Source: Microlunatus sp. Gsoil 973 (lineage in GTDB: Bacteria > Actinomycetota > Actinomycetes > Propionibacteriales > Propionibacteriaceae). From it: a stretch of DNA of 64,000 nucleotides. The DNA is taken from contig NZ_CP046122.1 of the NCBI RefSeq assembly GCF_009707365.1, positions 4,526,001 through 4,590,000 on the forward strand, in the 5' to 3' direction. The position numbers and the translations under genes were made by a program. Under the pieces are notes generated by a model that ran no database searches, was not told the DNA's origin, and worked only from the letters and a program-made list of their open reading frames with translations. The first letter of the stretch is position 1, and each line of letters opens with the position of its first letter. Positions 39,925-64,000 of the stretch are shown in pieces.

Positions 39925-41952
39925 ATGGGCACAGTCGTCTGTGGCGAATGCGGAGAACAGAACGACAGCAGCGCGACGTTCTGCACCAACTGTCACGCCT
40001 ATCTCCAGTGGGATGCGGGGAGTACCGCTGCAGCCGGTCCGGCGACCCGGCCGGTCGGTGCGCCGCCGGTGGCCGAGCCGAAGGTTCCCACAGTCGAGCA
40101 GGACGGTGCCGAGCAGAGTGCCGAGCGGAGTGTCGAGCAGGGTGTCGAGCAGGACACTGAGGCCACGCAGGTACGGCTCCGTCCCCAGCCCGATCCGCAA
40201 CAATCCGCGCCGACCAACACCGCCGACCCCGGATTCCGTGCCACCGCGACCACCCAGGCAGTCACCGTGCCGGCCACCGGCGAGCCGGTGTCGATCACCA
40301 TCGAGATCACCAACACGTCCAACATCGTCGACGGCTATCGGGTGGCGACGCCGGGCGCCCCGCAGTGGCTGACCGTGGAGTCCGGGCAGCTGCAGTTGCT
40401 GCCCGGAACCAGCGAGTCGCTGTCGGTGCACGTACGGATCACTTCGGCGTCACTGGTCCGCGCCCAACAAGTGCGCGCCTCGCTCCAGGTCCGATCGATG
40501 GTCCAGGACAGCGCAGCGGTCGAGCTCCCACTGGAGATCACCGTGCCTGTCGTGCAGGCACCGGTACTGTTGCGGGCCGAACCGCAACTGGTCCGGGTCC
40601 GCGATCAGAACAGTGCGAAGTGCTTGATCATCGCGGACAACGCCCGCAGCAACCGGCCGGTCACCCTTGCCTTCTCCGGCACGGATCCCGAGCTGGCGGT
40701 CCGCCTCGGGTTCCAGCCCGAGGTGCTGTTCGTCGGACCAGGGGCGTCGGCCGCCGTTGAGTTGGTGATGTCGGCAGCCGTCCCGGATCCCGGCCAGGAA
40801 GTCAGCCGGGCAGTGACCGTGGTCGCCACCGAGGGGGACCAGCGCGCCGAGACCCAGCTGACCTTCCAGCAGTCGGCAAGTGCCGCCGACCCGCCGGTGG
40901 CCGTCGAGGTGGTGCCGAGCCTGATCCGGCTCAACGACCTGGATTCCGCCGAGGCCCGGGTGGTCCTGGACAACCGGAAGGGTCGGTCCGGAGTCCGTCT
41001 GTGGCTGGGTGCCACCGACCCCGAACAAGCGCTCTCGTTCACCTTCTCACCACCGGTGGTCGATGTCGCGCCGGGACGCGTCCTGGCAGTTGATCTTCGG
41101 CTGGACGCACCGCGTCCGGCCGCCGGGCAGGAGGTCACCCGGCCGTTCAGCGTGACCGCCGGCGACGGACGGACAACGGTCCAGGCCGCCGCGTCCCTGG
41201 TGCAGTTCAGTTCGCGGGCGGCGATCGACACGTTGACCATCAGCCTCGACCCCAGCGTCCTGAATCTTGGCCATCGGCGCCGAGGCTGGTTGACCGCCGT
41301 CCTGGACAACCGGGCCGGTACGCAGCCTGCGAACGTCGCGCTGTACGGCGACGACCCGCGCAACGCCCTGCACTTCTCCTTCTCGCCCGCGACGCTCCTG
41401 GTTCCGGCCGGTCAGACGGCTGCGACCCGGGTCTCGATCCGGGCGCCTGGTCCGCAGAACGGCCGGGAGTCGACGTTGCCGTTCGACGTGATCGCCTCCG
41501 ATGGTCGATCGGAGGTCCGGTCCGGCGGCAGTGTCATCCAGGCAGCGGCCGATCGGCGTCCGCTGCTGCGCATCCTCTTCACCCTGCTCGGTGGTCTGGC
41601 GATGATCCTGGGAACCTACCTGCCGCTGCGGGCCGCGGAGTCCACCCGCGCCTGGGATCTGACAGCCGACAGGTTCGCCGGAATCTTCGGCGGCAGCGTC
41701 GATCTGGGCGGTGCCGCCTGGATCACGGTCGGGCACGTGATCATCGCTCTCGGCATCCTGGTGATGATCGGACTCGTCACCGCCAAGGGCGGGCTGAGTC
41801 GCCGGATGGCCGTGCTCGGCGTGATGGTTGTCGTCGGCACCCTGGTCACCTTCGCGGTCGCCGGGAACAGCCCGGTGCCCGGCGCCGGTGCGTTCCTGAT
41901 CATCCTGGGCTGCATCGCCGGCTTCATCGGCGGCCGGCTGGTCCGGCAGTGA
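39925..41952 (+). CDS. eCIS-associated zinc-ribbon membrane protein with beta-sandwich repeats
   Basis: 675 residues. The N-terminal zinc ribbon is C-G-E-C-G...F-C-T-N-C followed by a WD-ending motif, the same pattern as in the products at 44192 and 46140. After a linker come four immunoglobulin-like/COG1470-type repeats of about 100 residues (each with a strand such as SITIEITNTSNIVDGY or EARVVLDNRKG), and four C-terminal membrane helices (about 555-675). ATG 39925 gives the complete ribbon. Proteins of this kind are annotated in Streptomyces injection-system loci as hydrolytic proteins, without evidence for hydrolysis. It may place the system at the membrane (inference). Confidence 0.7.
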   Translation: MGTVVCGECGEQNDSSATFCTNCHAYLQWDAGSTAAAGPATRPVGAPPVAEPKVPTVEQDGAEQSAERSVEQGVEQDTEATQVRLRPQPDPQQSAPTNTADPGFRATATTQAVTVPATGEPVSITIEITNTSNIVDGYRVATPGAPQWLTVESGQLQLLPGTSESLSVHVRITSASLVRAQQVRASLQVRSMVQDSAAVELPLEITVPVVQAPVLLRAEPQLVRVRDQNSAKCLIIADNARSNRPVTLAFSGTDPELAVRLGFQPEVLFVGPGASAAVELVMSAAVPDPGQEVSRAVTVVATEGDQRAETQLTFQQSASAADPPVAVEVVPSLIRLNDLDSAEARVVLDNRKGRSGVRLWLGATDPEQALSFTFSPPVVDVAPGRVLAVDLRLDAPRPAAGQEVTRPFSVTAGDGRTTVQAAASLVQFSSRAAIDTLTISLDPSVLNLGHRRRGWLTAVLDNRAGTQPANVALYGDDPRNALHFSFSPATLLVPAGQTAATRVSIRAPGPQNGRESTLPFDVIASDGRSEVRSGGSVIQAAADRRPLLRILFTLLGGLAMILGTYLPLRAAESTRAWDLTADRFAGIFGGSVDLGGAAWITVGHVIIALGILVMIGLVTAKGGLSRRMAVLGVMVVVGTLVTFAVAGNSPVPGAGAFLIILGCIAGFIGGRLVRQ

Positions 41953-42065
41953 GCGGTGCCGCAGTACCGAACCGCGTTGAGGATTTGTTGAGCGACCGTT
42001 GATCAGGCTGTGAGCGACGCGCGGAAGCTGGTCCTGTCGGGTGTCCATCGGGGAAGGAAGAAGCG

Positions 42066-42692
42066 ATGACGGGGGCAGTCGGTGTGTACGTCCAGGGCAA
42101 GGATCCGATCTCTCAGGCGGGTGTGATCGCCCAGTTGCGGATGCGCCCCGAGGTGCGGGTCGTGGCCGAGACCGAACGAACCAATGCGACGGTCGGGGTG
42201 ATGGTGACCGACCAGATCGATGATCAGACCGTCCGGGGACTGCATGCGCTGCGTCGCAGCGGGCTGGTCCGGCTGGTGCTGATCGCGTCCGATGTCGACG
42301 ACGCCGCCCTGGTCGCCGCAGCCGAAGCCGGTGTCGGCGGGCTGTTGCGGCGCTGCGACGCCACCGCGGAGCTGCTGGTCCGCACCATCATCAGGGTGTC
42401 CCAGGGCGAGGGTGAGATTCCGGCCGATCTGCTGGGACGCCTGTTGGAGCAGGTGGGCCGGCTGCAACGGCAGGTGCTGGCACCGCGTGGGTTGACCTTC
42501 ACCGGGCTGACGCCACGGGAGACCGAGGTGCTGCGGATGGTGGCCGACGGCCACGACACCTCCGAGATCGCCCGAGAGCTGTCCTACAGCGAGCGGACGG
42601 TCAAGAACGTGTTGCACGACCTGACCACGCGGCTCCAGCTGCGCAACCGTTCGCATGCGGTGGCGTACGCGGTCCGCGAAGGGCTGATCTGA
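42066..42692 (+). CDS. LuxR-family regulator with degenerate receiver
   Basis: 208 residues. The receiver-like N-terminal half lacks the acidic pair (GVYVQGKDPIS) and the phosphoacceptor position reads V-M-V-T-D, so it is probably not phosphorylated normally. The C-terminal LuxR HTH is intact (LTPRETEVLRMVADGHDTSE; SERTVKNVLHDLTTRL). ATG 42066 follows GGAAGGAAG. It lies at the head of the injection-system locus, where Streptomyces loci also carry LuxR regulators, so it is the best candidate for cluster control. Confidence 0.8.
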   Translation: MTGAVGVYVQGKDPISQAGVIAQLRMRPEVRVVAETERTNATVGVMVTDQIDDQTVRGLHALRRSGLVRLVLIASDVDDAALVAAAEAGVGGLLRRCDATAELLVRTIIRVSQGEGEIPADLLGRLLEQVGRLQRQVLAPRGLTFTGLTPRETEVLRMVADGHDTSEIARELSYSERTVKNVLHDLTTRLQLRNRSHAVAYAVREGLI

Positions 42693-42702
42693 TCCGATCG
42701 GT

Positions 42703-44199
42703 TCACTGGTCGGCACGGTTGACCAGCCCCTCGAGGGTGCGTGACGCGGTTCGCGCTGCCTGCTGCACGGCGCGACTGGACAGCGGATGTTCGGCGGTAC
42801 GTCGCCACCGGGCCAGTTCGGTCAGGGCGGCCTGCCGTACGGCGTCCGGGTCCGCGTCCCGGTCGAGTCCCAGGCGCGACCACGGGTCGTGACCGCTGCC
42901 GCCCAACAGCCGGTCGAGTGCTGTCGCGAGCTCGGGTCTGAGATCGAGCGTGCCGGCACGGAGCGTGCCGAGCATGCGTATCTCCTCGAACTCGTGGGTG
43001 CCGGCCGCCAGTTCCTCGACCGCCGCGCGGAGTTCGGCGGCATCGGTGCAGCCGCCCCGGCGCAGCACGTCGGTGAGCACCGCCAGCGCCGACCGCGCCT
43101 TGAGGACTCGGCTGCGTGCGGTGAACTGCCGGGCCAGCACGTCACTGAACCGGGCCAGCCCGCTGCGTTTGACCAGCGCCGCGGCGAGCTCCTGCGAACT
43201 TCCGACGGTCCCGGTGCGGATCAGTTCCACCGACAACCGGACGCCGAACAAGCCCATCCGGTCCAGAAGATGTTCCCGTTCCAGCTCGGTGATCTCGGTC
43301 GCCAGCCGGGTCGCGAACCGGTCCGCGGTGAGCAGCAGTTCGGCGGTCACCTCCGGCGGCGCGGCGGCCAGCCGGGCAAGCATCTGGTATTCCGCCTGAC
43401 GGAAGGTGACGGCGGCGTTGGCCAGCAGACCGTCCACCGCGACGACGATCGGGCACAGCCGTCGCAGCCTGGGTTCGTACCGATAGCGACGGGCGATGCG
43501 GCCGGCGACCTCCATCGCGTCCAACCGGCAGGCGCCGATCTCGTCGGCCCGGGACAGCACCCCGATGGAGTTCATCACCGTCCCGTGGATCAGTTCGTCG
43601 TCGTGGAACGCTTCGAGGAATCGGATGTCACTGGCATGGGTGTGCCGCATCAGATAGACCACCGCATCGGCGACCGGGACTCGGTTGTCGTCGGCGGCCA
43701 TCACCCGATGGGTGCGCTCGGACACCTCGGCCGAGATCGATGCGATGCCCGGGGTGTCGATGATCGTCAGCTGGTCCAGACGACTGGTCGGCCAGCTCAC
43801 CTCGAGATGATCAACATCGGCAGCCGCGAATCCACCGAGATCAATCTCCAGAGCACCCTCGTCCCTGGACCACGGGCGGCGTTCGGGACCGCCGGTGATC
43901 GGATAGGCGATCACGCCCGCTTGCAGCCCGTTTCGGTACCAGGTGACGATCTTGGTGCACTCGCCGGCGTCGGTCGGTGCGAGTTCCTCGCCGAGCAGCG
44001 CGTTCAGCAGTGTCGATTTGCCGGCCTTCACCTTGCCGGCAATGGCGATCCGCAGGGGTCCGCCGAGCCGGTTCCTGGCTGCGCCGAGTCGATCGGCGAA
44101 TTCGGCGGACGCCGCCGAGTCGGCGGCCCGGGCCAGGAGGCGGTCGACCTGGATGACCAGGCCGGTTCCCGGCGTATCGACGGTCGTCGGATCAGGCAT
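42703..44199 (-). CDS. Dynamin-like GTPase
   Basis: 498 residues. G1 motif GKVKAGKSTLLNALLG near residue 55, G3 DTPG in TIIDTPGIAS, and a G4-like SRAD. Helical C-terminal half without clear membrane helices. Bacterial dynamin-like proteins bind and remodel membranes, often as pairs of unlike subunits. This gene overlaps the second GTPase gene by 8 bp, fitting such a pair. Located within the injection-system accessory block; a direct role there is inference. Confidence 0.82.
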   Translation of the reverse strand: MPDPTTVDTPGTGLVIQVDRLLARAADSAASAEFADRLGAARNRLGGPLRIAIAGKVKAGKSTLLNALLGEELAPTDAGECTKIVTWYRNGLQAGVIAYPITGGPERRPWSRDEGALEIDLGGFAAADVDHLEVSWPTSRLDQLTIIDTPGIASISAEVSERTHRVMAADDNRVPVADAVVYLMRHTHASDIRFLEAFHDDELIHGTVMNSIGVLSRADEIGACRLDAMEVAGRIARRYRYEPRLRRLCPIVVAVDGLLANAAVTFRQAEYQMLARLAAAPPEVTAELLLTADRFATRLATEITELEREHLLDRMGLFGVRLSVELIRTGTVGSSQELAAALVKRSGLARFSDVLARQFTARSRVLKARSALAVLTDVLRRGGCTDAAELRAAVEELAAGTHEFEEIRMLGTLRAGTLDLRPELATALDRLLGGSGHDPWSRLGLDRDADPDAVRQAALTELARWRRTAEHPLSSRAVQQAARTASRTLEGLVNRADQ

Positions 44200-46111
44200 G
44201 ATCGCCTGCCAGGGCCAGAACGGTCTCCCGTACGCTCTGCACCATCCGTTCCCGTTCGATCAACTCCTGGGTGCGGCTTTCCCTGCGCCCGGGATCGAGC
44301 TGCTGGGCCTGTTGCGCGCGCTGCAGTGCCTCGGTCGCCGACCGCTGCATCAGCAGGGCCCGTTCGCTGAAATTGTCCCGTAGTGCCCGCTGGGTTGTGC
44401 GCAGACCGTCCCGGGTCAGCTTGTTGAGAACGAATGCGACCTCGTCGACGAATTTGCGGACCGCTGCCACTGCCTGCTGCCTGCGATAGGTGCGCTGCCG
44501 GGTGCGCTCATCGGAAATGATCTTGCGACCGATGCCGGCGCCGAGTGCCGCGGACAGTCCGGCGATGGACAGATGGACGATCGGGCCGACTTCCAGCACC
44601 GCTGCCGCGACACCGCCGGCCATCATCGGTAGGTAGAAGCTGCTGCGGGCCGCCATCATCAACGGCGCCAATCTGCCGCCGGGCTGCTTCAGCGATTCGG
44701 CCGGCGCCAGACTGATCTCGTCGAGACTTGTGCCGGGGTCGCCCAGTCGTAGATCGACATCCCCGGCCTGGAGGTCGAACTGTTCTGCCACGTCCTGGGC
44801 CAGTTGCCGGGCTCGTTCGCTGAGCAGGTCTCGGTTGGCGACCGCCGCCATCGCCACCTGGCGCCGCAGCCAGACCTCGGTGTCGGTCCAGGTCTGCAGC
44901 GGATCGGTCCGGCCGATCAGTTCGTCGGCGCTCTGCAGCACCGTCCGCAGCCGCTGGGTGAGGTCGTGTTCGACGTCGGCAACCAGATCGGCGATGCCGT
45001 CGGACAGCATCTGCTGCCAGGTCGCAGTGGGCGATACCAACCGGGTGGCCCGCTCCCGAGCCTGGTCGAGCCGCTCGACCGCTTGGTCCGCAGCCGCGGG
45101 CTCGGACAGCACCGCGAGCTCTGCCCGCGACTGACCGGCCAGGTTTTCGGTGACGAAGTCCAACTCACCCGCCGCCGCGCGCGCCGACTCGGCCCGGCAC
45201 GCGGCGACCACATCACGTGCCAGGAACCTGACAAGATCGGCAAACCCGGATTCGGCGTTCAAGGCTGGATCTCTGGCCGCTCGCAGCCGAAGGAACGACG
45301 ACACGGTGATCACCGGCAGGTCGAGGCCGGCTCGTTCGAGGTGGCCGCGATCAAGATCGGCGATCCGACGCCACTCCCGGTACAGGTCCGTCTTGGTGAT
45401 CACCAAAGCCGTCCGAGGACAGCGGCTGACCGCCGTCTTGAGGAAGTCCAGTTCGGGTGCCGTCAGTTCCTGGGCCGCATCGGTGACGAAAAGCACCCCG
45501 CGGGCGTGCCGAAGTGTGCCGAGGGTGAGGAAGCCGTGCGCGGAATCGAGTCCGCCGACGCCCGGACTGTCGATCAGACGCAGACCGGTACGCAACATCC
45601 GATGCGGCAGTCCCACCTCGACGAACCGTTCCCGGCCCGGATCGCTGGGATCGGCCGGCTCGGTGACCAGCAGCTCGAGCTCCTCCAACGGCGCCGATCG
45701 TTCGACGAGTTCCTCACCATCGGATGATCGACTGTAGGCGGTCAGTCGCGGTGTCTTTGCCCAACGCACGGTGGTCGGCACCGCGGTGACGAGGTCGGCG
45801 TCCACCGGGCAGACCGCGCGCTGGAGGAGCGCGTTGACCAGCGTGCTCTTGCCACGTTTGAATTCCCCGGCCACGACGACCGGGATCGGCACCTGGTCCA
45901 GCTGTTCCCTGGTCGCCCGCAGATGCTGTTCAAGATCATCTCGACCCTCCTCGGCAGCCAGTCGCGCGGTGACCTCCAGCGCGGCTATCGTCGTGGCGAC
46001 CGGTTCAGCGGTCGGAGCCTCGGCGTCGTTCCAACCCAGGAATGTGTTGCAGGAATTGCAGAACTCTGTCGCCGAGGGGTTCTCCGCCCCACAATGAGTG
46101 CATCGAGTCAT
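44192..46111 (-). CDS. Dynamin-like GTPase with N-terminal zinc ribbon
   Basis: 639 residues. Starts with a zinc ribbon C-T-H-C-G...F-C-N-S-C and L-G-W-N-D, then a GTPase domain: G1 GEFKRGKSTLVNALL, G3 DSPGVGG, G4 TKTD. A hydrophobic stretch near residues 490-540 (FYLPMMAGGVAAAVLEVGP; LSIAGLSAALGAGIGRKI) may be a membrane paddle or hairpin. ATG 46111 with GGAG upstream is chosen because the ribbon begins there. Pair partner is the overlapping downstream GTPase. Ribbon shared with two neighbouring proteins suggests a common partner. Confidence 0.82.
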   Translation of the reverse strand: MTRCTHCGAENPSATEFCNSCNTFLGWNDAEAPTAEPVATTIAALEVTARLAAEEGRDDLEQHLRATREQLDQVPIPVVVAGEFKRGKSTLVNALLQRAVCPVDADLVTAVPTTVRWAKTPRLTAYSRSSDGEELVERSAPLEELELLVTEPADPSDPGRERFVEVGLPHRMLRTGLRLIDSPGVGGLDSAHGFLTLGTLRHARGVLFVTDAAQELTAPELDFLKTAVSRCPRTALVITKTDLYREWRRIADLDRGHLERAGLDLPVITVSSFLRLRAARDPALNAESGFADLVRFLARDVVAACRAESARAAAGELDFVTENLAGQSRAELAVLSEPAAADQAVERLDQARERATRLVSPTATWQQMLSDGIADLVADVEHDLTQRLRTVLQSADELIGRTDPLQTWTDTEVWLRRQVAMAAVANRDLLSERARQLAQDVAEQFDLQAGDVDLRLGDPGTSLDEISLAPAESLKQPGGRLAPLMMAARSSFYLPMMAGGVAAAVLEVGPIVHLSIAGLSAALGAGIGRKIISDERTRQRTYRRQQAVAAVRKFVDEVAFVLNKLTRDGLRTTQRALRDNFSERALLMQRSATEALQRAQQAQQLDPGRRESRTQELIERERMVQSVRETVLALAGDHA

Positions 46112-46139
46112 ACGATCACTCCGCCGGCCGAGGGGGTGT

Positions 46140-47234
46140 GTGTTGGACGTGATCTGCGAGTCCTGCGGAACGTTGAATCGCTCGGCGGGGGAGTTCTGCA
46201 CCGAATGCGGGGCCTTTCTTGCCTGGGACCAGGACGCCGGGAACACCACGGCCGTCCCGCAGGCAGCGAACAGCCAGCCAATCAGTCCGGCGAGCACACC
46301 GGCGAGCACCCCGACGATCCCACAGTCGATCACCTCGACAAGCGGTGCGAGCACTGCCGGGGCACCTCCATCGACGGGACCGGCGACGGCAGCACCGGTG
46401 ACGGCATCGACCGACAACGACCAGAAGACGACCGCGGTCCTGCCGGACACGCCGACCGGTCCGGTCTGCCCCGACTGCGGACGGATCAACGATCCGGGCC
46501 GGAGATTCTGTGCCAAGTGCGGACGGCAACTCGGGCAGACCCGGCAGCTGCAGACGGGGACAGCCGAGAGCCGGGCGGATAGCCGTCGTCGGGAGCGGGC
46601 CGACCGGCGTGCCTTCCGAGACAGCCTGCCGGCGATCTATCGCTGGCGACGGATCGGGTTGATCCCACTCGCCGTGGCGGTGCTCCTCGCCGGCGCCGTG
46701 ACCGTCGGGGCAGACCCGGTCGGCTGGGTCAAGGCCCGCTGGTACGACGTGAAGGGATCGGTCGTCAACGTCGCCGGTGTTCAGGCGACCGCCCTGACCG
46801 CCGGCCGTGACGCCGGCACACCTCGCGATGCCGCCGCGCTGGTCGACGGCACAACCGCAGACTGGCAGGTCCGGTGGACGGGGTCCGATCCGGCCCCGCA
46901 GTGTGCGGGCGGCCCCACAACGCCGACGATCGAACTGACCCTGCCCCAACCCGTCAGGATCCGTGCTGTCGACGTCTACCCGGGACTGGGACCGGACCAG
47001 CCGCAGCGCCCGCTGCAGTTCCGGCCGCGGAGCGTCGGGATCACTCCGATCGGGGCCGGTGGCTGTCAGGGGTTCCGACTCGCCGACTCCGGTGACCGCC
47101 AGCGGCTGGAGTTCGACAGCCGACAACCGGTCTCGGTGATCAGGATCAGCCTGAACACCGCCTATCCCGCCGCCGCGGACGGGCAACAGCGGCTCAGCAT
47201 CCGGGAGATCACGCTGCTGGCCCGGCCCCGGTGA
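46140..47234 (+). CDS. Double zinc-ribbon membrane protein with discoidin-like domain
   Basis: 364 residues. First ribbon C-E-S-C-G...F-C-T-E-C then L-A-W-D; Thr/Ala/Pro-rich linker; second ribbon C-P-D-C-G...F-C-A-K-C (about 115-135); one membrane helix (about 185-205); then an F5/8-type C-terminal domain (RDAAALVDGTTADWQVRW; PVRIRAVDVYPGL). GTG 46140 follows AGGGGG. Its start is only 28 bp from the divergent GTPase start. Looks like a bridge between a cytoplasmic complex and an outer ligand; function unknown. Confidence 0.65.
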   Translation: MLDVICESCGTLNRSAGEFCTECGAFLAWDQDAGNTTAVPQAANSQPISPASTPASTPTIPQSITSTSGASTAGAPPSTGPATAAPVTASTDNDQKTTAVLPDTPTGPVCPDCGRINDPGRRFCAKCGRQLGQTRQLQTGTAESRADSRRRERADRRAFRDSLPAIYRWRRIGLIPLAVAVLLAGAVTVGADPVGWVKARWYDVKGSVVNVAGVQATALTAGRDAGTPRDAAALVDGTTADWQVRWTGSDPAPQCAGGPTTPTIELTLPQPVRIRAVDVYPGLGPDQPQRPLQFRPRSVGITPIGAGGCQGFRLADSGDRQRLEFDSRQPVSVIRISLNTAYPAAADGQQRLSIREITLLARPR

Positions 47235-47251
47235 CGCGGTGATCCATCCGG

Positions 47252-51750: not shown

Positions 51751-51777
51751 TCGGAACATCAAGATCAGGAGAGCGAC

Positions 51778-54532: not shown

Positions 54533-54582
54533 CCGGACCCAACCATCTGATCATCAGCGGCTAGAAGAGAGAGGTTCCCGCC

Positions 54583-55478: not shown

Positions 55479-55630
55479 CGTACGCGACCGACCGGCTGTA
55501 TTCCGAGATCGCGTACGTCGCCTACTACCTGCATTGGTCGTACGACACGATCCTCGATCTGGAGCATGCCGAGCGTCGCCGCTACGTGGCGGAGGTCGGC
55601 GCGCTGAACAACCGCATCCGGCGCGGCTGA
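55475..55630 (+). CDS. DUF6760-like small eCIS protein
   Basis: 51-residue protein: MTYATDRLYSEIAYVAYYLH at the N-terminus and LEHAERRRYVAEVGALNNRI near the C-terminus. It matches the small DUF6760 proteins that come after the tube and assembly genes in injection systems and phage-like loci (recognised from memory). ATGA overlap with the previous gene supports translation. The IS110 element begins soon after its stop. Confidence 0.8.
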   Translation: MTYATDRLYSEIAYVAYYLHWSYDTILDLEHAERRRYVAEVGALNNRIRRG

Positions 55631-55659
55631 GCCGGCGCCGAGGAGTCTCAATGACGAAG

Positions 55660-56871: not shown

Positions 56872-57062
56872 GTGCTCCTACTGATCGGTCCTGGTGGTGA
56901 CACGGCCCGTGGAACACCCCGCCGACATCTCCGTAACCAGCGACCTACCCGCACGTCTCAATCAGCAGTCAGGGTGCCCCGCGGAGCCGGGCGGCCACTC
57001 CTCGGGAACGAACGAGCGCAAGAACTGATCAGCCACACCCGGCACCACAGGGCCACCTATCA
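56872..57062 (-). ncRNA. Candidate bridge RNA region of the IS110 element
   Basis: About 190 noncoding bases upstream of the transposase start, the position of the bridge RNA in IS110-group elements. I see GC-rich self-complementary parts (for example GCGGAGCCGGGCGGCC near 56980) but did not fold it. Assignment is by position only. Confidence 0.35.
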
Positions 57063-57080
57063 ACTTACGGAGAACTGATC

Positions 57081-59537
57081 ATGAAGTGGCGTTGGTGGCC
57101 GTTGCGCGACGCGCGCCCCGACCCGGTCGCGGTGTCCCGGTCGGCCCCGGCCGTTGATCATCTCTCGGGCGCCACCCCCGAGCCGGCTTGGTCCCGGTTG
57201 CCGACCCTGCAACGCGCGGTACCGCTGCAGTTGCAACCGGTCGCACCGCTGGACCGATTCACGTCCGGCCTGACCGCCTATCGGAACCCCAGCATGTTGG
57301 GTGATCTCGGGCATCTGGTCGATCACAGCGAGCCGTCGGGATCGGTCAGTGGGCTCGCCGTGCCCAGGCGGTCACCCGTCCTACCGTCCGGATCCGGCGA
57401 CGGGGAAGAGCACATCGCAGAGACGACACCGCCCAACGGTGGCTTCACGGTGCAACGCCAGGAGGTGGTTGCGGACTCGTTCAGCGCCGTGCCGCGCGAG
57501 GCGGCACGCGATGACAGCCCGGACGAGCGCCAAATCCCTCGCACCCCTGATGATCACGCGGCCACGGAAGATCATCCGCCGGTGAGCCGGTCCGACCCGA
57601 TGCGCGCCCTTCAGCGCACCATCGAGTCGTCGGTGCCCGCAGGCCAACCGCCCACACCGCCAACCGTTCCGCAACCGATCCCCGCCGGGCCGGACATCGT
57701 GGCCCCCGGTCGACCGGACGCCGACCCGACTCCAGCGCCTGCCACGGAGCCCGATGGAACGGCGCCGCTCAGCGGATTCGCAGCAGCGATCATGGCGATC
57801 ACCGCCGACGAGTCGGTTTCCCTGGACGCTGTGCGCCGGCCGGCGATCCCGGAAGTCCCTCCGGCCGTCCAACGGTCGACCCTGGCCCCGGCGAGGGCCT
57901 CAACGCCGGTCTCGACATCGGCGCCGGCACCGCCGTTGCCGTCCACGCCACAGTTGACACCACGACCGACACCACGGCCGACACCGCGACCAACGCCGCG
58001 GCCTCCGTCGGTCGTCTCTGCGACCTCCCCTGCGGTCCCGCTCGAACCGGCGCCACCGTTGGGCTCGGAGCCCGTCGTGGGGGGATCGACCGCGGATGGG
58101 GCTCAGGCAGTATCCGACTCGGCAGCGGTGCCGCTACGGCCGATCCCGGTCCAGCGCATGCCCGCCGGCAGCAGGGGTGGCACAGTCGACGGTGGTGATC
58201 AGCTCGACCATGATCTCCTCGACCATGATCAACCTGTCCATGATCTCCTCGACCATGATCTCCTCGACCATGATCAACTCGATCACGCTGAACTCGATCA
58301 CGCTGAACCCGACCGGCATCATTCCGATCGCCATCACTCCGATCGCCAGCACTCGGCCTCGGAACAGCCCGACCGGGATCGCGTCGTCGGCGGCCAACAG
58401 CCCGTCACGCAGCCCGTCGTGGCGCGCCTCTGGTCGCAGACCCCACCGTTGCTGCCCGAGTCCCGATCGCTGCTGCGTGGTTCAGCGCCTTCGAATCTGC
58501 CGGCTCCCGCCGCGCAGCGGATCAGCTATCGGCAGGACCAGGTCGCCGCCGGCCGTCGCAGTGATCATCCCGATCACGGACGCCCGGTGCCAAGTCCCGA
58601 CCATCCGATGCGAATGGGCGACGCGTTGAGCGGATCCGGGCCATTGGCCACGCCACTGTCGATCATCCCGCCGGTCCAGCGGTGGACGCCACAGAGTCCA
58701 CCAGCGGCAGCCGCATCGGTCATGAACCGGTCGTCCGACCCGCTGCAGGTCGACCCGATGCCGATCGAGCACATCCCGATCGAGCCCATCCCGATGGACC
58801 TCATCGCCGAGGAGCCAGTGTCCGCCGAAGTCATGCCCGTTGCACCGGACCCTGACGACGGCGCGATCGGCGGGAGCTACACACCGCTCACCTCGACGAG
58901 CTTCGAGATGCCGTTGCCGATGATCACCCCGGGTGCCAACGGCCCGGCGATAGGCAACTCCTTGGCGCAGCAGACCGGCCGGCACACATCGGGCCCGACG
59001 ACACCACACCTGCAACGCAGCTGGGCACCGAACCCGACGCCGTCCCGGCCGATCAGCCCCGGCCCGAGTGCCGTGCAGCAGGCCGGCCCTCATCCGGGCG
59101 AAGGTCCGGACAATCTGCTGACCGATCCGATCCGGGTCGTTCGACCGAAGCCGGTGGAGGTCGCCCCTCCGGCGCCGGTGCAGCGCAGCGGACCGATGTC
59201 CTTCGACACCATGTTCGGCAGCTACGCATCGGGACCCCGACAGCCGGACCTGCCGGTGCAACGCGCCACCGAGGTCTCCCGGACCGACGAATCCACCACG
59301 GCACCAGGCTCCGGGGCTCCGCGATCGGCGACCGACGAGTCGGCCTCCCAACCGGCGCCGATCTCCGCACCACCCACTCCCGGTCTGCCGGCTTCTGCAC
59401 CGCCCGCGGCGGCAGGCACGACCGAAAGCGTCGACGAACTGGCCCGGCGGCTCTTCGAACCGCTGTCCGCCCGGATCAAGGCCGAGTTGTGGCTGGACCG
59501 GGAGCGCGCCGGCCTGATCACCGACGTCCGATCATGA
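57081..59537 (+). CDS. Long disordered eCIS protein with VQR motifs
   Basis: 818 residues, rich in Pro, Ser, Ala and Asp and probably largely unfolded. About ten short (V/L/A)QR motifs are spread along it. There is a TPRP repeat (about 295-310) and eleven pentapeptide units of D-(Q/L)-L-D-H type (373-427). Only the C-terminal 40 residues look folded: SVDELARRLFEPLSARIKAE then LWLDRERAG, a helix kept in related loci. ATG 57081 has GGAG ten bases upstream. It may be a scaffold or tape-measure-like component; the VQR motifs are shared with the DUF4157 protein. Confidence 0.65.
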   Translation: MKWRWWPLRDARPDPVAVSRSAPAVDHLSGATPEPAWSRLPTLQRAVPLQLQPVAPLDRFTSGLTAYRNPSMLGDLGHLVDHSEPSGSVSGLAVPRRSPVLPSGSGDGEEHIAETTPPNGGFTVQRQEVVADSFSAVPREAARDDSPDERQIPRTPDDHAATEDHPPVSRSDPMRALQRTIESSVPAGQPPTPPTVPQPIPAGPDIVAPGRPDADPTPAPATEPDGTAPLSGFAAAIMAITADESVSLDAVRRPAIPEVPPAVQRSTLAPARASTPVSTSAPAPPLPSTPQLTPRPTPRPTPRPTPRPPSVVSATSPAVPLEPAPPLGSEPVVGGSTADGAQAVSDSAAVPLRPIPVQRMPAGSRGGTVDGGDQLDHDLLDHDQPVHDLLDHDLLDHDQLDHAELDHAEPDRHHSDRHHSDRQHSASEQPDRDRVVGGQQPVTQPVVARLWSQTPPLLPESRSLLRGSAPSNLPAPAAQRISYRQDQVAAGRRSDHPDHGRPVPSPDHPMRMGDALSGSGPLATPLSIIPPVQRWTPQSPPAAAASVMNRSSDPLQVDPMPIEHIPIEPIPMDLIAEEPVSAEVMPVAPDPDDGAIGGSYTPLTSTSFEMPLPMITPGANGPAIGNSLAQQTGRHTSGPTTPHLQRSWAPNPTPSRPISPGPSAVQQAGPHPGEGPDNLLTDPIRVVRPKPVEVAPPAPVQRSGPMSFDTMFGSYASGPRQPDLPVQRATEVSRTDESTTAPGSGAPRSATDESASQPAPISAPPTPGLPASAPPAAAGTTESVDELARRLFEPLSARIKAELWLDRERAGLITDVRS
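58197..58361 (+). repeat. 15-bp tandem repeat inside the disordered eCIS gene
   Basis: Eleven in-frame 15-bp units (GATCTCCTCGACCAT type), first strongly alike, later degenerating to CATCACTCCGATCGC. They encode the D-(Q/L)-L-D-H units. Likely variable in copy number between strains. Confidence 0.85.
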
Positions 59538-59579
59538 TCATCGATTCGGCCACAGCCACGAGCAGAGCAGGGAGGGACC

Positions 59580-60014
59580 GTGACGACGAGCAACGCTGAT
59601 CCCGCAGTGAGCGTGTGTTTCACCGTCAGGATCGACGACGACGATCTTGGCTACTTCAACAGCTGTGACGGGCTGGGCTGCGAGGTGGTGATCGAGCAGC
59701 GCGAGGAGGGCGGCAACAACGGCTTCGTCTGGCAGCTGCCAACCCGGATCAAGTACTCCACGATCAAACTCTCCCGCCCGGTGGGCGAGGACAGCGACAA
59801 ACTCACCGCCTGGCTCGCCGGCTTCGCCAACGGTGTCAGCCGGAAGACCGCCACGATCGAGGCACGCCGCGCGGACAAGTCGGTGGTCGCCACTTGGCAC
59901 CTCGACGGCGTCATCCCGGTGCGGTGGAGCGGACCGAGCCTGAGCCCCGAATCGCCCAAGATCGCCACCGAGACGATCGAACTCGCCCACCACGGTTTCC
60001 TTCCGGGGGCATGA
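59580..60014 (+). CDS. Second tube protein (T4 gp19-like)
   Basis: 144 residues, paralogue of the tube at 54583: VCFTVRIDDDDLGYFNSCDG, then VVIEQREEGGNNGFVWQLP and KLSRPVGEDSDKLTAW. In Afp/PVC-type systems such additional tube proteins form the layer joining tube and spike. GTG 59580 follows GGAGGG. Confidence 0.93.
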   Translation: MTTSNADPAVSVCFTVRIDDDDLGYFNSCDGLGCEVVIEQREEGGNNGFVWQLPTRIKYSTIKLSRPVGEDSDKLTAWLAGFANGVSRKTATIEARRADKSVVATWHLDGVIPVRWSGPSLSPESPKIATETIELAHHGFLPGA

Positions 60015-60015
60015 G

Positions 60016-60807
60016 ATGAACCAACCGATCGCCTTGATGACCGGCGCCGGCGGATCGCTCCCCAAGCCCGGCGACCAGGGTGCGAACGGCCAGTCGTCGA
60101 AGGATTCCTCCTCGATGCAGCGCGCCAATCTGACCCTGTACGACGCCAAGGGTGCCGCGGACGGCGGTGGCAAGCCTGGTGCCGAACGCGGCAAGGTTCC
60201 CTTCCAGTTCAACCCGAAGGAAGTCACCATCACCAAGACGGCCAAATGGGAACGCAAGACCGCCAAGGGCGCGAAGACCGCCGGCCCGCCGGAGTTCTCG
60301 GGATCCGAACCCTGCAAGCTCAACGTAGAGATGTTCTTCGATGCGACGAACAATCCCAACGGCTCGGTCGTCGCCGCCGTGGAGCAACTGCTCTCCTGCC
60401 TGGTGCCGACCGAGGAGAGCGCCGGGCAGAAGAAGCCGTCGCCGCCGTTGGTGGTGCTGCACTGGGGCGCCATCTCCAGCTTCCCCGCGTTCGTCACCTC
60501 GGTCACCGCGAAGTACACGCTGTTCAGCAGCAACGGCACACCGATCCGGGCCAGCTGCGCGGTACAGATGGAGGAGATGCCCGGAGCGCCCTGGCGGCAG
60601 AATCCGACCTCCGGCAGCCACGACGTCCGCCGGGTGCACCGCACGATCGCCGGTGACTCCCTGGCCTCGATCGCCTACACCGAATACGGCGACCCGACCC
60701 GCTGGCGCGCACTGGCGCGCTACAACGACATCGATGACCCGATGCGGGTCCCCAGCGGTAGCACCCTGCTGCTGCCCACCCCCGAAGAACTGGCGGCCGT
60801 CGAATGA
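60016..60807 (+). CDS. LysM-containing tube-spike adaptor (Pvc7/Afp7-like)
   Basis: 263 residues. N-terminal CIS-tube domain: VPFQFNPKEVTITKTAKWER and GSEPCKLNVEMFFDA. C-terminal LysM (about 210-258): RTIAGDSLASIAYTEYGDPT and MRVPSGSTLLLPTPEEL. Homologues (gp53/Afp7) link the spike to tube and baseplate. Start one base after the tube stop; ATGA overlap with the spike gene. Confidence 0.92.
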   Translation: MNQPIALMTGAGGSLPKPGDQGANGQSSKDSSSMQRANLTLYDAKGAADGGGKPGAERGKVPFQFNPKEVTITKTAKWERKTAKGAKTAGPPEFSGSEPCKLNVEMFFDATNNPNGSVVAAVEQLLSCLVPTEESAGQKKPSPPLVVLHWGAISSFPAFVTSVTAKYTLFSSNGTPIRASCAVQMEEMPGAPWRQNPTSGSHDVRRVHRTIAGDSLASIAYTEYGDPTRWRALARYNDIDDPMRVPSGSTLLLPTPEELAAVE

Positions 60808-62591
60808 GCATCAGCAGCACCTTCCTGGTGGAGATCGACGGGCAGCCGCTGCCCGAGGATGTGACGCCGCTACTCACTGCGGCCGTCGTCGACGACAGTC
60901 AACGGCTGCCCGACCTGTTCTTGCTGCGGTTCCGTGACCCCGGGCGGGTGGTGATCAGCAAATCCGGTGCCAAGGTCGGCTCCAAGGCCAAGATCAGCGT
61001 GCTGACCGCCGATTCGCAGACTCCGGCGGAGTTGATCAACGGTGAGATCACCGCGCTGGAGGCCGAGTTCGACAGCACCGGGACCTTCACGGTGATCAGA
61101 GGCTACGACCCGGCGCACCGGCTGTTCCGCGGCCGGCGGACGGTCAGCTACGTCCAGGCCACCGCCTCCGACATCGCCACCACCATCGCGCGACGGGCCG
61201 GTCTCGCCGTGGGCGAGGTGACCTCGACGACCACCGTCTACCCGCAGCTCAGCCAGGCCGGCGAGACCGACTGGGAGGTGCTCGAGCGGCTGGCCCGCGA
61301 CACCGGGTTCGAGGTCGCGGTCAGGGACCAGAAGTTCACCTTCGGCCCGCCGACGCAGGCAGTCGCCGCGCCGGGCGCATCGGCCGACGCCGCCCGCAAT
61401 CCGCTGGTCCTCCAACTGGGCAAGGATCTGCTGAGTTTCCGATCGGTGATCAGTTCGGCCGAACAGGTCAAGGAGGTCGAGGTCCGGGGCTGGGACATCG
61501 CCACCAAGAAGGCGCTGAAGGCGAACGCACCGGCGCAGACCACCAGCGCCGAGCTGACCGCGGTCAGCCCGGCCGACCTGGCCAATGCCTTCGGCGATCC
61601 CACCCATGTCGCCGCGTCGGTGCCCTACCGCAGCCAGGCCGAGGTGGACACCGCAGCCAAGGCGCTGGCCGAGGAGATCGCCGGGACGTTCGCGGAGTTC
61701 GAGGCCACGGCGCGCGGCAATCCGCAACTGCGGGCCGGGGCGGCGATCCGGATCGACCAACTCGGGGACCCGTTCGACGGCAAGTACGTCCTGACCCGAT
61801 CCCGGCACCAGTTCGACCCGACCACCGGCTACACCACGGCCTTCACGGTCAGCGGCCGTCAGGACCGCAGCCTGCTCGGCCTGACCGGAGGCAGGAGTCG
61901 CGTGCCACAGGCTCCGCCCGGCGTCGTGGTCGGCGTGGTCAGCGACATCCAGGATCCGGAGAACGCCGCCCGGGTCCGGCTCACCTTCCCGTGGCTGTCC
62001 GACGACTACGTCAGCGACTGGGCACGGACCGTTCAGCCCTCGGCCGGTGCGGACCGCGGCTGGACGGTGCTGCCGGAGGTCGGCGACGAGGTCCTGGTCA
62101 GCTTCGAACAGGGCGATTTCGGACGGCCGTACATGATCGGCGGCCTGTTCAACGGTCTCGACACACCACCCTCCGGGCCGGTCGACCTGGTCGACTCCGG
62201 AAGCGGAGCGGTCAACCGGCGCTCGATGGTGTCCCGGAAAGGGCACCGGCTGGATCTCCTGGACTCCGACCGCTCCGAAGGCATCCGGATGGCCACCTCG
62301 GACGACAAATTGTTGATCTTCCTGGACAGCACCCAGACCACGATCACCGTGCACGCCGATGGCAAGGTGGCGATCGAAGGCAGCAAGGGCATCAGCATCG
62401 ACGCGGCCACCTCCTCACTCGAACTCAAGGGCGGCGACATCTCGGTCAAGGCGACGAACGGCGTGAGCATCGACGGCGGCCCGTCGCTGAAGCTGACCGG
62501 GGTCAGTTCGAAACTCGAGGGCAGTGCCACCACCGAGATCAAGGGTGGCTCGTTGTGCTCGGTGTCCGCCGCAATGGTGAAGATCAACTGA
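60804..62591 (+). CDS. VgrG-like central spike protein (Pvc8/Afp8-like)
   Basis: 595 residues. Phage late-control-D-like part (1 to about 345), gp5 OB-fold (about 372-455: GVVVGVVSDIQDPENAARVR; VLPEVGDEVLVSFEQGDFGR), and a C-terminal beta-helix-like region (TITVHADGKVAIEGSKG; GVSIDGGPSLKLTG). Trimeric spike at the tube tip, carrying the PAAR protein encoded next. Confidence 0.95.
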   Translation: MSISSTFLVEIDGQPLPEDVTPLLTAAVVDDSQRLPDLFLLRFRDPGRVVISKSGAKVGSKAKISVLTADSQTPAELINGEITALEAEFDSTGTFTVIRGYDPAHRLFRGRRTVSYVQATASDIATTIARRAGLAVGEVTSTTTVYPQLSQAGETDWEVLERLARDTGFEVAVRDQKFTFGPPTQAVAAPGASADAARNPLVLQLGKDLLSFRSVISSAEQVKEVEVRGWDIATKKALKANAPAQTTSAELTAVSPADLANAFGDPTHVAASVPYRSQAEVDTAAKALAEEIAGTFAEFEATARGNPQLRAGAAIRIDQLGDPFDGKYVLTRSRHQFDPTTGYTTAFTVSGRQDRSLLGLTGGRSRVPQAPPGVVVGVVSDIQDPENAARVRLTFPWLSDDYVSDWARTVQPSAGADRGWTVLPEVGDEVLVSFEQGDFGRPYMIGGLFNGLDTPPSGPVDLVDSGSGAVNRRSMVSRKGHRLDLLDSDRSEGIRMATSDDKLLIFLDSTQTTITVHADGKVAIEGSKGISIDAATSSLELKGGDISVKATNGVSIDGGPSLKLTGVSSKLEGSATTEIKGGSLCSVSAAMVKIN

Positions 62592-62637
62592 GGCTCGCAG
62601 CAGACAGTGATCACCGAACGCGAGGAAGGAGATGATC

Positions 62638-62919
62638 ATGCCGATGGCAGCACGGGTCGGTGACCCGACCGGGCATCCCGGGGTGATCGGCCCACCGGGC
62701 GTGCCGACGGTACTGATCGGCGGAATGCCCGCGGCAACGGTCGGCACTCCGCACATCTGTTCCTTCCCGCCACCGGCGGTGCACCCGCCGTCGACGATCG
62801 TTCCGCCGGGATGCCCGACCGTCCTGATCGGTGGCCTGCCGGCCGCCCGGATGGGCGACATGGCAGGCTGCGGTGCCCCCATCGTGATGGGGTGCCCGAC
62901 GGTGATGATCGGAGGTTGA
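62638..62919 (+). CDS. PAAR-domain spike tip protein
   Basis: 93 residues, PAAR fold: MPMAARVGDPTGHPGVIGPP, PTVLIGGMPAATVGTPHICS, PTVLIGGLPAARMGDMAGCG. His and Cys residues would hold the metal at the needle tip. ATG 62638 is chosen because AGGAAGGAG ends six bases upstream; ATG 62632 is too close to it. Confidence 0.92.
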   Translation: MPMAARVGDPTGHPGVIGPPGVPTVLIGGMPAATVGTPHICSFPPPAVHPPSTIVPPGCPTVLIGGLPAARMGDMAGCGAPIVMGCPTVMIGG

Positions 62920-62921
62920 TG

Positions 62922-63356
62922 ATGGACGTCGACTTCGTCGGCGCGGGATGGTCGTTCCCGCTTGGCACCGACGCGACCAACGGCGTCGGCCTGGTCAGAG
63001 GAGAACGAGAGATCGAACAGGCGATCCGGCTGATCCTCGGCACGGCCTGCGGGGAGCGTCCGATGCGTCCGGAGTTCGGCTGCCGGATCCATGATCACGT
63101 CTTCGGTCCGGCGACCAGCGCAACGGCCGGCCAGATCGCCTACGACGTGCGGATCGCCTTGGAACGGTGGGAGCCGCGGATCGAACTGCTGGACGTCTCG
63201 GTCAGCTTCGAGGCCCTGGAGTCGGGAACCGTGTACGTCGACGTCGGCTATCGGGTTCGCGGCTCCAATGATCCCCGAAACCTGGTCTTCCCGTTCTACG
63301 TCATCCCCGACGAGCGTGCCGCCGATGACAAGCTTGCGATCACGAAAGGCACCTGA
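62922..63356 (+). CDS. Baseplate wedge protein (gp25/Afp9-like)
   Basis: 144 residues of the GPW/gp25 family: GWSFPLGTDATNGVGLVRGE and REIEQAIRLILGTACGERPM, then RPEFGCRIHDHVFGPATS. This lysozyme-like fold starts sheath assembly on the baseplate. GGAGG lies six bases before ATG 62922; an ATG directly before it is also in frame. Confidence 0.95.
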   Translation: MDVDFVGAGWSFPLGTDATNGVGLVRGEREIEQAIRLILGTACGERPMRPEFGCRIHDHVFGPATSATAGQIAYDVRIALERWEPRIELLDVSVSFEALESGTVYVDVGYRVRGSNDPRNLVFPFYVIPDERAADDKLAITKGT

Positions 63357-63358
63357 TC

Positions 63359-64000
63359 ATGTTGCCCGCCCCGAACCTCGACGACCGCCGGTTCCAGGAT
63401 CTCGTCGACGACGCCAAGCGCCTGGTCCAGCAACGCTGCCCGTCGTGGACCGATCACAACGTCTCCGATCCCGGGGTGACGCTGATCGAGGCGTTCGCCC
63501 AGATGGTCGACCAGTTGATCTACCGGCTGAACCGGGTCCCGGATCTGCACTACATCAAGTTCCTGGAACTGATCGGCGTCGAGCTGCGGCCGCCGGCTGC
63601 CGCCCGGGGCACGGTCACCTTCTGGTTGGCCGCGCCGCAGCCGCAGCCGGTGCTTGTCCGGGCCGAGACCCAGGTCGCCACCGCCCGGACCGACGTCAGC
63701 GAGCCGGTGGTCTTCTGCACCAGCCGCGACCTGAACATCCTGCCCTGTTCCTTCGCGCAGGCGGCGGCACAGACCAACGGTGCGGCTCCGGTGAACACCA
63801 CGTCCGCGCTGGCCGGGCCGGCCGGGTTCCGCTGCTTCTCCGACACGCCGAGGCCGGGCGATGCGCTGCTGATCGGACTGGACAACGCCGTACCCAGCTG
63901 CGCGGTCACACTACGGATGGAATGCGTGGTGTCGGGACGCGGCGTCGATCCGAAACGGCCACCGCTGGTGTGGGAGGCGTGGACAGACGACGGATGGACC
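63359..64000 (+). CDS. Baseplate protein J-like (partial)
   Basis: First 214 residues only; continues beyond the window. N-terminus LPAPNLDDRRFQDLVDDAKR and WTDHNVSDPGVTLIEAFAQM, then LIYRLNRVPDLHYIKFLELI, are typical of the putative baseplate assembly protein (gp6/Afp11-like) of these systems. It forms baseplate wedges. More baseplate genes are expected to the right. Confidence 0.92.
   Translation, partial: MLPAPNLDDRRFQDLVDDAKRLVQQRCPSWTDHNVSDPGVTLIEAFAQMVDQLIYRLNRVPDLHYIKFLELIGVELRPPAAARGTVTFWLAAPQPQPVLVRAETQVATARTDVSEPVVFCTSRDLNILPCSFAQAAAQTNGAAPVNTTSALAGPAGFRCFSDTPRPGDALLIGLDNAVPSCAVTLRMECVVSGRGVDPKRPPLVWEAWTDDGWT

Follow-up and report, generated by a model that had tools for sequence, protein, structure and literature searches.

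A putative cytoplasmic-type contractile injection locus of Microlunatus sp. Gsoil 973 with an adjoining dynamin pair and a recurrent zinc ribbon

The 64,000-nucleotide stretch of Microlunatus sp. Gsoil 973 DNA analysed here (the window) carries a contractile injection system (CIS) locus at positions 48956-64000, extending past the window to 65899, which its genes suggest to be of the cytoplasmic (IId-like) kind found in Streptomyces coelicolor. A conserved membrane-and-wall module accompanies it, and it is quite possible, if short of probable, that a zinc ribbon recurring in the module recruits particles by docking and that a tandem pair of dynamin-like GTPases acts at the firing site. The report on the membrane adaptor CisA (PMC12237407) describes the contact made by CisA as unproven and the way in which a cytoplasmic particle reaches the membrane and fires as open; a zinc-finger tag shared by three membrane-linked proteins may be how the machine finds its target membrane.

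The gene set was compiled from open reading frames and family matches, because a simple gene caller missed several genes. A full set of core structural genes is present within one locus, as judged from Pfam matches and the regions past the window, and the eCIS gene set listed by the initial annotation is thereby confirmed, with PAAR identified by its conserved place and baseplate J starting in the window; the core extends past the window. On the plus strand lie, in order, a Cis16-like cap/terminator gene (48956-49651; Pvc16_N, DUF4255, E 6.1e-43), a WHD and AAA+ ATPase (49648-51750; Pfam), an eCIS_core (DUF4157) protein (51778-52491; E 3.8e-33), the sheath (52997-54532; Pfam, and PDB 8bky/9gtp at E 5e-207) and inner tube 1 (54583-55026; Phage_T4_gp19, E 4.6e-28). 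These are followed by a 151-aa protein with a C-terminal CxxC (55023-55478), which matches neither Pfam nor NCBIfam and is 64-84% identical where found in other CIS loci, a 51-aa protein (55475-55630; 47-79% identity where found in such loci) and an 818-aa low-complexity protein (57081-59537), the C-terminal end of which is conserved and the N-terminal part present in some relatives. Inner tube 2 (59580-60014; Phage_T4_gp19, E 1.7e-28), a CIS_tube and LysM adaptor (60016-60807; Pfam), a VgrG-like spike (60804-62591; Pfam, and PDB 9gtr at E 6.8e-123), a PAAR-like tip (62632-62919), a gp25 baseplate wedge (62919-63356; Pfam E 2.2e-24) and baseplate J (63359-64000, continuing to 65308) complete the series in the window. 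The PAAR-like gene occurs at the same place, with 73-94% identity, in seven of the 11 other CIS loci mapped at the baseplate; Motilibacter has a 52% match elsewhere within its locus, and none was seen in the mapped baseplate regions of G012, G507, G425 and G634. Beyond the window are the remainder of baseplate J and a P2_I gene, and just past the core end at 65899 come a BTAD/STAND-type regulator, an SLT_3/NlpC hydrolase and an Hsp70-propeller protein. A tRNA scan found none.

The closest solved particle for both sheath and spike is the S. coelicolor CIS (PDB 9gtp, 9gtr). With that type IId system (SCO4242-4263) the locus shares cap, AAA+ ATPase, two tubes, sheath, LysM adaptor, spike, gp25, baseplate J and P2_I, as well as a CisA-like adaptor and an Ig/TM effector-like protein. 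It differs in the placing of the CisA-like gene, which is found at the cap end, divergent from the larger dynamin gene, and not after the baseplate, and in the addition of the dynamin pair, the SLT_3/NlpC hydrolase and a four-Ig membrane protein (ZnIg4TM). The copy in this strain is possibly damaged. An IS110-family transposase gene (55660-56871, minus strand; DEDD_Tnp_IS110, E 1.7e-47) lies inside the operon between the 51-aa and 818-aa genes and, used as a query, had no match in the mapped regions of other CIS loci. Two frame changes, near 64108 and 64520, for which an assembly error is possible, interrupt the reading frame of baseplate J as assembled, so that the core genes of this strain are not all single open frames; given the insertion and the frame changes, this copy may not work.

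The accessory block, which the initial annotation had called unusual, recurs in relatives and across several orders and is thus not peculiar to this window. It divides in two: the products of 46140-47234 and 47252-48802 appear to be of known kinds, and for the tandem dynamin pair (42703-46111) beside a cap gene the literature searches found no published description. The order Dyn2-Dyn1-CisA-Ig/TM-cap-AAA is kept in six mapped relatives, two of which (G012 and G002) have insertions; the neighbourhood is therefore not due to chance. The gene at 46140-47234 (plus strand) encodes an LxW ribbon, a second ribbon, one membrane helix and an F5/8-type-C (CBM32-like) C-terminal domain, and its product looks like CisA, for which the published description gives a Cys-rich stretch, then one membrane helix, and an outer C-terminal part with similarity to carbohydrate or solute-binding domains. 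The Cys-rich region, the single helix and the glycan-binding-like C-terminal domain are all found here (whole-model mean pLDDT 56); the protein is shorter than CisA (SCO4242; 364 residues versus 468) and differently placed in the locus. CisA is required for firing and has a cytosolic N terminus (PMC12237407). Genes for homologues with 24-27% identity stand among the baseplate genes, or follow them, in G634, G461, G417, G618, G381 and the second locus of G046, and in G615 the alignment is limited to the ribbon.

Two membrane-anchored beta-sandwich proteins adjoin the core, as had been noted. One, encoded at 47252-48802 (minus strand), has Ig-like domains, one membrane helix, an fn3 domain and a C-terminal part, and is a candidate effector of the Sco4256 type. 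Its N-terminal part is 29-38% identical to proteins inside other CIS loci, and in this shared part, the one membrane helix and a variable C terminus it may resemble Sco4256-4258, from which its fn3 domain and its C-terminal part would set it apart. The other, ZnIg4TM (39925-41952, plus strand), carries an LxW ribbon at its N terminus, ahead of a disordered stretch of about 70 residues and four Ig-like beta-sandwich domains, and ends in four membrane helices; the ribbon and Ig-like parts have Pfam matches, and the AlphaFold model has a mean pLDDT of 80. Its best fold matches are Ig repeats of the ciliary central apparatus, at low whole-chain TM-scores, and full-length homologues occur in six further genomes, all of them CIS-positive. 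PDB profile searches with the CisA-like and ZnIg4TM alignments returned weak matches, mostly to ribbon-type proteins.

Both GTPases reported beside the eCIS genes match Dynamin_N. Dyn1 (44192-46111, minus strand) contains the GTPase motifs and, behind an N-terminal LxW zinc ribbon, matches mycobacterial IniA (PDB 6j72) nearly full-length (residues 43-632, E 2.1e-85). Dyn2 (42703-44199, minus strand; Dynamin_N E 7.5e-12) is probably IniC-like, judging by its size and tandem place, and its PDB matches are confined to the GTPase part of dynamins. The tandem recurs in the mapped loci and in most of a further set, and resembles mycobacterial IniA/IniC (PDB 6j72, 6j73) in pairing an IniA-like protein with a smaller second GTPase; the ribbon and the location in a CIS locus set it apart. 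IniA is a lipid-binding protein whose cutting of membranes depends on GTP (PMC6715688). The cell-division dynamins of the DynA type were rejected as relatives, the NCBIfam DynA matches being weak (E 5.5e-5 and 0.0035) against the strong match to IniA.

The GTPase and ribbon genes belong to the locus. Linkage of the GTPases to CIS genes, the criterion by which the initial annotation had let its inference stand or fall, holds for part of the family. In the order sample, all seven genomes with a GTPase match of at least 55% identity have a cap gene about 3-11 kb away, and in the named scan a cap gene lies 2.1-9.6 kb from the dynamin in 31 of the best 80 loci, from seven actinobacterial orders, the proximity being kept at 32-57% identity. 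For the family as a whole that criterion goes against the annotation: in the class sample, 7 of 70 genomes with an IniA-like match have a cap gene on the same contig no more than 40 kb away (drafts may hide some), and most IniA-like genes lie elsewhere, mostly as tandem IniA/IniC-like pairs; dynamins are also absent from the CIS loci of G461, G634, G615, G618 and G381. Trees were built from the matches listed with their loci (at most 30 per search) and the best 80 named-scan loci. With 52 rows, from which nine weak partial Dyn1 matches were omitted, all 13 linked rows fall on one side of a branch with support of 82; with 113 rows, from which seven duplicate loci, ten weak or distant ones and two short frames were also omitted, the 39 linked rows require nine changes versus 32.6 in shuffles. 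A single clade of CIS-linked GTPases, true of the smaller tree, thus fails in the larger, and the linked Dyn1 copies cluster within part of the IniA tree, Dyn1 itself falling outside the branch with most unlinked rows, including family f7 genus g40 (presumably Mycobacterium). In the larger tree 'unlinked' denotes loci with no core gene except AAA+ within the fetched stretch, and Motilibacter was scored as linked by hand (35 kb, same contig); the label is conservative, since 16 of 26 searched genomes of such loci (25 unlinked, one linked) have a cap gene somewhere, at whatever distance.

A zinc ribbon ending in LxW is N-terminal in the CisA-like protein, Dyn1 and ZnIg4TM; the first has a second ribbon besides, the others have the one. 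Of the three zinc-ribbon proteins announced earlier, the third is thus the larger GTPase itself and not a separate protein. The Dyn1 ribbon is known from Propionibacteriales and Motilibacter, and all eight aligned rows have the same Cys, Leu and Trp residues in it; one Kribbella has a protein with two ribbons. Counting as full-length only listed matches that reach model position 24 (the Trp), the class sample yielded, among the matches listed, 35 such ribbons in 27 of 394 genomes, of which 26 have a cap gene and the 27th has other CIS genes, against a background of 60 cap-bearing genomes in 394. The model was built from rows of CIS loci, and four of the 27 genomes contributed to it; of the remaining 23 with a listed full-length match, 22 have a cap gene. 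At most 21 candidates per genome were scored and matches listed down to E 7.4e-6, and full-length ribbons are missing among the listed matches in 34 of the 60 cap-bearing genomes, which may be due to CIS of other types, to the E cut-off or to the limit of 21 scored candidates. The model matches 134 genomes in all, the other 107 having shorter matches or none reaching the Trp among those listed, and the view that all zinc ribbons are alike was accordingly rejected; two Frankiaceae (G507 and G425) have a CisA ribbon without the full LxW form. In a chosen genome set, 11 of the 13 CIS-positive members had a full-length ribbon match and none of the 17 cap-less ones did; among Dyn1 rows, 10 of the 39 linked carry the ribbon and none of the 74 unlinked.

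A lysozyme/NlpC wall hydrolase (SLT_3/NlpC) is present in 26 of the 31 cap-linked dynamin loci of the named scan and in none of six CIS loci without dynamins, over the 35-40 kb read of each; five Frankiaceae-type loci place it between dynamins and cap. Neither a hydrophobic signal nor a membrane segment was seen in it. A membrane coupling of the GTPase and ribbon proteins, as first suggested, would seem the natural reading, and the ribbon that CisA has in common with other membrane factors offers a concrete candidate for the contact between particle and membrane. It would act as a docking tag for a single common partner, most likely the baseplate, because the literature predicts that the cytosolic part of CisA contacts Cis11. 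Particles would be recruited through it to membrane sites holding CisA and ZnIg4TM, and firing would carry cargo, the hydrolase perhaps included, through the membrane of the cell itself and on to the wall; Dyn1 and Dyn2, brought by the ribbon, would pinch off or reshape the pierced membrane, giving controlled release or repair. That the machine is accompanied by a wall hydrolase and a GTPase pair of the membrane-fission kind suggests a coupling of firing with the remodelling of membrane and wall, and the two could be used as marker genes for finding such systems. More tentatively, the LxW ribbon may serve the cytoplasmic CIS of actinobacteria as a dedicated address tag. Its bearers would dock on one particle or adaptor surface and so bring membrane anchors, along with a membrane-cutting GTPase, to the place of firing, and the shot would be an act of cut-and-reseal rather than simple self-killing.

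That the dynamins form an anti-phage module like LeoABC, likewise a dynamin-like pair, is most improbable: the PADLOC LeoA model matches Dyn2 (E 5e-11) and LeoBC matches Dyn1 (E 1e-13), but both matches are best over the GTPase part and neither is full-length, IniA covers nearly all of Dyn1 (E 2e-85) and is far closer to it, and none of the six proteins scanned matched a further PADLOC defence model. The pair might instead, though this is somewhat unlikely, limit damage by repairing or excising membrane that particles of the same cell have pierced, a form of immunity and not a part of firing. The IniA authors propose membrane maintenance through fission of compromised areas (PMC6715688), the tandem pair is also found far from CIS genes, which argues for a self-standing function that was brought in, and the ribbon is missing in 29 of the 39 linked Dyn1 copies, so that the tag is not required for gene linkage. 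A pure repair enzyme would nevertheless have no need of a ribbon in common with CisA, and a wall hydrolase travels with the pair.

The same hydrolase, between dynamins and cap or elsewhere in the linked loci, could with the GTPases constitute a unit for egress or vesicle release of whole particles or cargo, for which both a wall hydrolase and a membrane-cutting pair would be needed; the loci would then stand closer to released eCIS than to the Streptomyces cell-death CIS. This is unlikely; CisA, a factor of cytoplasmic firing, is retained. A released system needs tail-fibre genes, and a tail-fibre gene was named by none of the family searches run, all of them general. Very unlikely, too, is mere neighbourhood, in which an envelope-stress dynamin operon lies beside the CIS under a shared regulator and the products make no contact. 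It would accommodate the 63 of 70 class-sample genomes that have an IniA-like match and no cap gene within 40 kb, and a Couchioplanes locus from an otherwise unlinked part of the tree that is also near CIS genes, but not readily the cap proximity kept over seven orders, nor a shared ribbon that is full-length, among the matches listed in the samples, solely in CIS-positive genomes. A point against the favoured reading of docking and action at the firing site is that Dyn1 might act away from that site, as a stress gene under a shared regulator. A LuxR/NarL-type regulator is encoded at 42066-42692 (plus strand; GerE, E 9.4e-15), and homologues of it are found in part of the named-scan loci and in or beside most of the mapped CIS loci.

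Family searches bear out the parts that the initial annotation had named for this locus, a contractile injection system (CIS) with sheath, two tubes, LysM adaptor, spike, PAAR, gp25, baseplate J, AAA+, DUF4255 and DUF4157 proteins beside two dynamin-like GTPases, three zinc-ribbon proteins and membrane-anchored beta-sandwich proteins. The genome comprises one contig of 4.91 Mb, of which the window represents bases 4526001-4590000, and the CIS core extends from the cap gene (Pvc16_N; 48956-49651, + strand), followed by the AAA+ gene (49648-51750, +), to the P2_I gene at 65899, past the window end. Among solved structures, the sheath is closest to 8bky and 9gtp (E 5e-207) and the spike to 9gtr (E 6.8e-123); 9gtp and 9gtr belong to the S. 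coelicolor CIS (PMC12237407), and 8bky stems from PMC10066040. Since the best matches of sheath and spike are to the S. coelicolor CIS, the locus is classed, by sequence kinship, as a cytoplasmic-type IId CIS.

Upstream of the cap gene lies the dynamin pair. Dyn1 (44192-46111, -) resembles IniA across residues 43-632 (6j72, E 2.1e-85), and the adjoining Dyn2 (42703-44199, -) matches solved dynamins in its GTPase part only. In a sample of 293 genomes from the order, 26 carry a match to Dyn1 with an E-value no higher than 1e-10; those at 55% identity or above, seven in number, all have a cap gene about 3-11 kb away, and the remaining 19 show none nearby, G292 having one on another contig. The gene order Dyn2, Dyn1, CisA-like gene, Ig/TM gene, cap gene and AAA+ gene is kept in six relatives, with an Hsp70-like insertion in two of them (G012, of the same genus, and G002), and a LuxR gene adjoins Dyn2 in five of the six; in G012 it is found some 3 kb beyond. 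Among 394 genomes sampled from the class, Dyn1 matches were found in 70 and cap genes in 60, the two lying within 40 kb of each other in seven: G000, G367 (Motilibacter deserti), G507, G600 (Parafrankia), G425 (Parafrankia), G460 (Frankia) and G346. A scan in which each species was represented by one genome confirmed 493 Dyn1 loci, of which the best 80 were kept; a cap gene was located 2.1-9.6 kb from Dyn1 in 31 of these 80, distributed over Propionibacteriales, Micromonosporales, Pseudonocardiales, Frankiales, Catenulisporales, Micrococcales (Cellulomonas) and Kitasatosporales. A Rhodococcus rhodnii contig (L238) is almost identical to Kibdelosporangium loci and likely represents contamination.

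Linked Dyn1 copies cluster in trees. In a 52-row tree, a branch with support 82 divides the 13 linked rows from all the others. In a 113-row tree, a single branch sets a group of 56 rows (38 linked) apart from the other 57, of which one is linked, and the linkage label requires 9 changes, vs 32.6 in shuffles (0/500 as low).

Dyn1 shares an N-terminal start with two further products of the block, the CisA-like protein (46140-47234, +) and ZnIg4TM (39925-41952, +), namely the zinc ribbon C-x2-C-G-x8-F-C-x2-C-x3-L-x-W, into which one ZnIg4TM row inserts two additional residues; ordinary ribbons, such as the second ribbon of the CisA-like protein, lack the L-x-W. A model built from 13 LxW ribbons was run on 30 chosen genomes and then on the class sample, a match being counted as full-length if it reached the Trp. 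Among the 30, full-length ribbons were detected in 11 of 13 CIS-positive genomes (absent in G507 and the Parafrankia genome G425) and in 0/17 cap-less genomes. In the class sample, where at most 21 candidates were scored per genome and matches were listed to E 7.4e-6, there are 35 full-length ribbons among those listed, in 27 genomes. A cap gene is present in 26 of the 27, against a background of 60/394 (Fisher p 5e-23, uncorrected for relatedness), and in 22 of 23 once the four genomes that supplied model rows are removed (p 9e-20, likewise uncorrected); in the 27th, G417, the ribbon site holds genes for baseplate, spike and CisA. No full-length ribbon is among the matches listed for 34 of the 60 cap-bearing genomes. 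Twenty-six of the 35 ribbons lie within 40 kb of a cap gene, and the other nine comprise three full-length ZnIg4TM homologues elsewhere in CIS-positive genomes, that of G417 and five on separate draft contigs. Among the Dyn1 rows, 10 of the 39 linked ones, from Propionibacteriales and Motilibacter, bear the ribbon, and none of the 74 unlinked ones does.

In its model (mean pLDDT 80), ZnIg4TM has a ribbon, then a loose linker, four domains of Ig-like fold and four helices. Compared domain by domain, it comes nearest to Ig repeats from the ciliary central apparatus, whole-chain scores being low. In G550 and G638 its gene adjoins those for AAA+ and cap; in G012 it lies away from CIS genes. A Kribbella protein encoded away from CIS genes (L154:10008-11204, in a locus fetched from that relative) has two LxW-like ribbons, the second ending YRGW, and N- and C-terminal hydrophobic stretches.

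The CisA-like protein has two ribbons, a single membrane helix and, at its C terminus, a domain whose model matches F5/8-type-C/CBM32 folds (mean pLDDT 56 over the whole chain, 75-87 in much of this domain); an NCBIfam NADase-type glycan-binding domain matches the protein weakly, under its cut-off. Homologues at 24-27% identity follow the P2_I gene in G634, G417, G618 and G381, and lie past P2_I and the regulator in G461. In the second CIS locus (L155-L156) of the Kribbella genome G046, a locus with CisA among its baseplate genes and without dynamins, the homologue has baseplate J on one side and P2_I on the other. The published cisA directly follows the baseplate genes. According to PMC12237407 its product is required for firing and spans the membrane with one helix, the N terminus being cytosolic and another domain lying outside, and its contact with Cis11 is a prediction only; PMC10020575 describes a Cys-rich, possibly Zn-binding stretch ahead of the helix. 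The neighbouring Ig/TM protein (47252-48802, -) has one helix, and its N-terminal half recurs in other CIS loci at 29-38% identity. PMC10066040 describes such traits for the effectors Sco4256-4258, and by that description the protein is a candidate Sco4256-type effector.

Just past the window end, a hydrolase gene (68607-70922, -) encodes SLT_3, NlpC/P60 and TSP3 repeats. Of the 31 cap-linked dynamin loci among the best 80, 26 hold a relative. The Motilibacter relative showed the SLT part only. The five loci without one are from three Kribbella and two Nocardioides, where the 10 kb fetched on each side stops before the far end of the locus; wider regions of two of these Kribbella, G046 and G099, hold the hydrolase, and that of the third, G087, ends short. 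Over 35-40 kb, no hydrolase was found in six dynamin-less CIS loci (G461, G634, G615, G618, G381 and the second locus of G046). A hydrophobicity scan, as distinct from a signal-peptide predictor, detected no stretch over its cut-off in the hydrolase, and such a protein without an evident export signal would fit cargo of the injection machine.

The observed genes, homologies, linkage and common ribbon can be accommodated in a scheme in which the LxW ribbon would serve as a docking tag, with the particle baseplate as its likeliest partner, while Dyn1 and Dyn2 may work on the membrane at the firing site and the hydrolase on the wall. IniA binds lipid and cuts membranes in a GTP-dependent manner according to PMC6715688, whose authors suggest a role in membrane repair and help from IniC, and repair remains a rival function for the dynamin pair here. 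Release, by the dynamin pair together with the hydrolase, remains another, as does mere neighbourhood with the CIS genes. Within the available text of PMC12402492, contractile injection and dynamin meet in the reference list alone, and the other paper mentioning both, PMC12994072, concerns mitochondrial proteases in the part available. The eCIS survey PMC8213781 contains no GTPase, dynamin, zinc ribbon or NlpC in its main text, the accessible part of PMC13277306 no GTPase or NlpC, and that of PMC11126660 GTPase once, for a different effector, and NlpC nowhere. Contractile injection and zinc ribbon were found together in none of the literature searched, outside which lie most subscription papers and supplements, and within the same reach these negatives indicate that the association of CIS with the dynamins and the ribbon is unreported.

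The copy in Microlunatus sp. Gsoil 973 shows two irregularities. An IS110-family transposase gene (55660-56871, -) lies inside the CIS operon, on the opposite strand, between two genes that in five of six mapped relatives stand no more than about 250 bp apart (in the sixth, no match covers where the second gene starts), and it has no match in the other CIS regions mapped. Baseplate J (63359-64000, continuing at 1-1308 of L004, the DNA directly past the window end) has two frame changes, near 64108 and 64520, and is in a single frame throughout in four relatives; the changes jointly restore the frame, and the middle part is still 55-58% identical to three close relatives. The insertion and the frame changes point either to decay of the locus or to assembly errors.

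The 151-aa protein at 55023-55478, with a C-terminal CxxC, is without a family match and among the most conserved of the locus, at 64-84% identity where found. Two histidine kinases (34642-35952 and 37288-38589) and an OmpR-type response regulator (38378-39313) are encoded immediately ahead of the block. One protein beside the CIS (L004:7097-9778) combines an Hsp70-like domain, a membrane helix and a WD40-like propeller; Hsp70-like genes recur in CIS loci, yet also near many unlinked dynamins. At the locus end is a 904-aa STAND/BTAD-type regulator (L004:1871-4585), and regulators of this type follow the baseplate genes in the mapped close relatives and in several other CIS loci.
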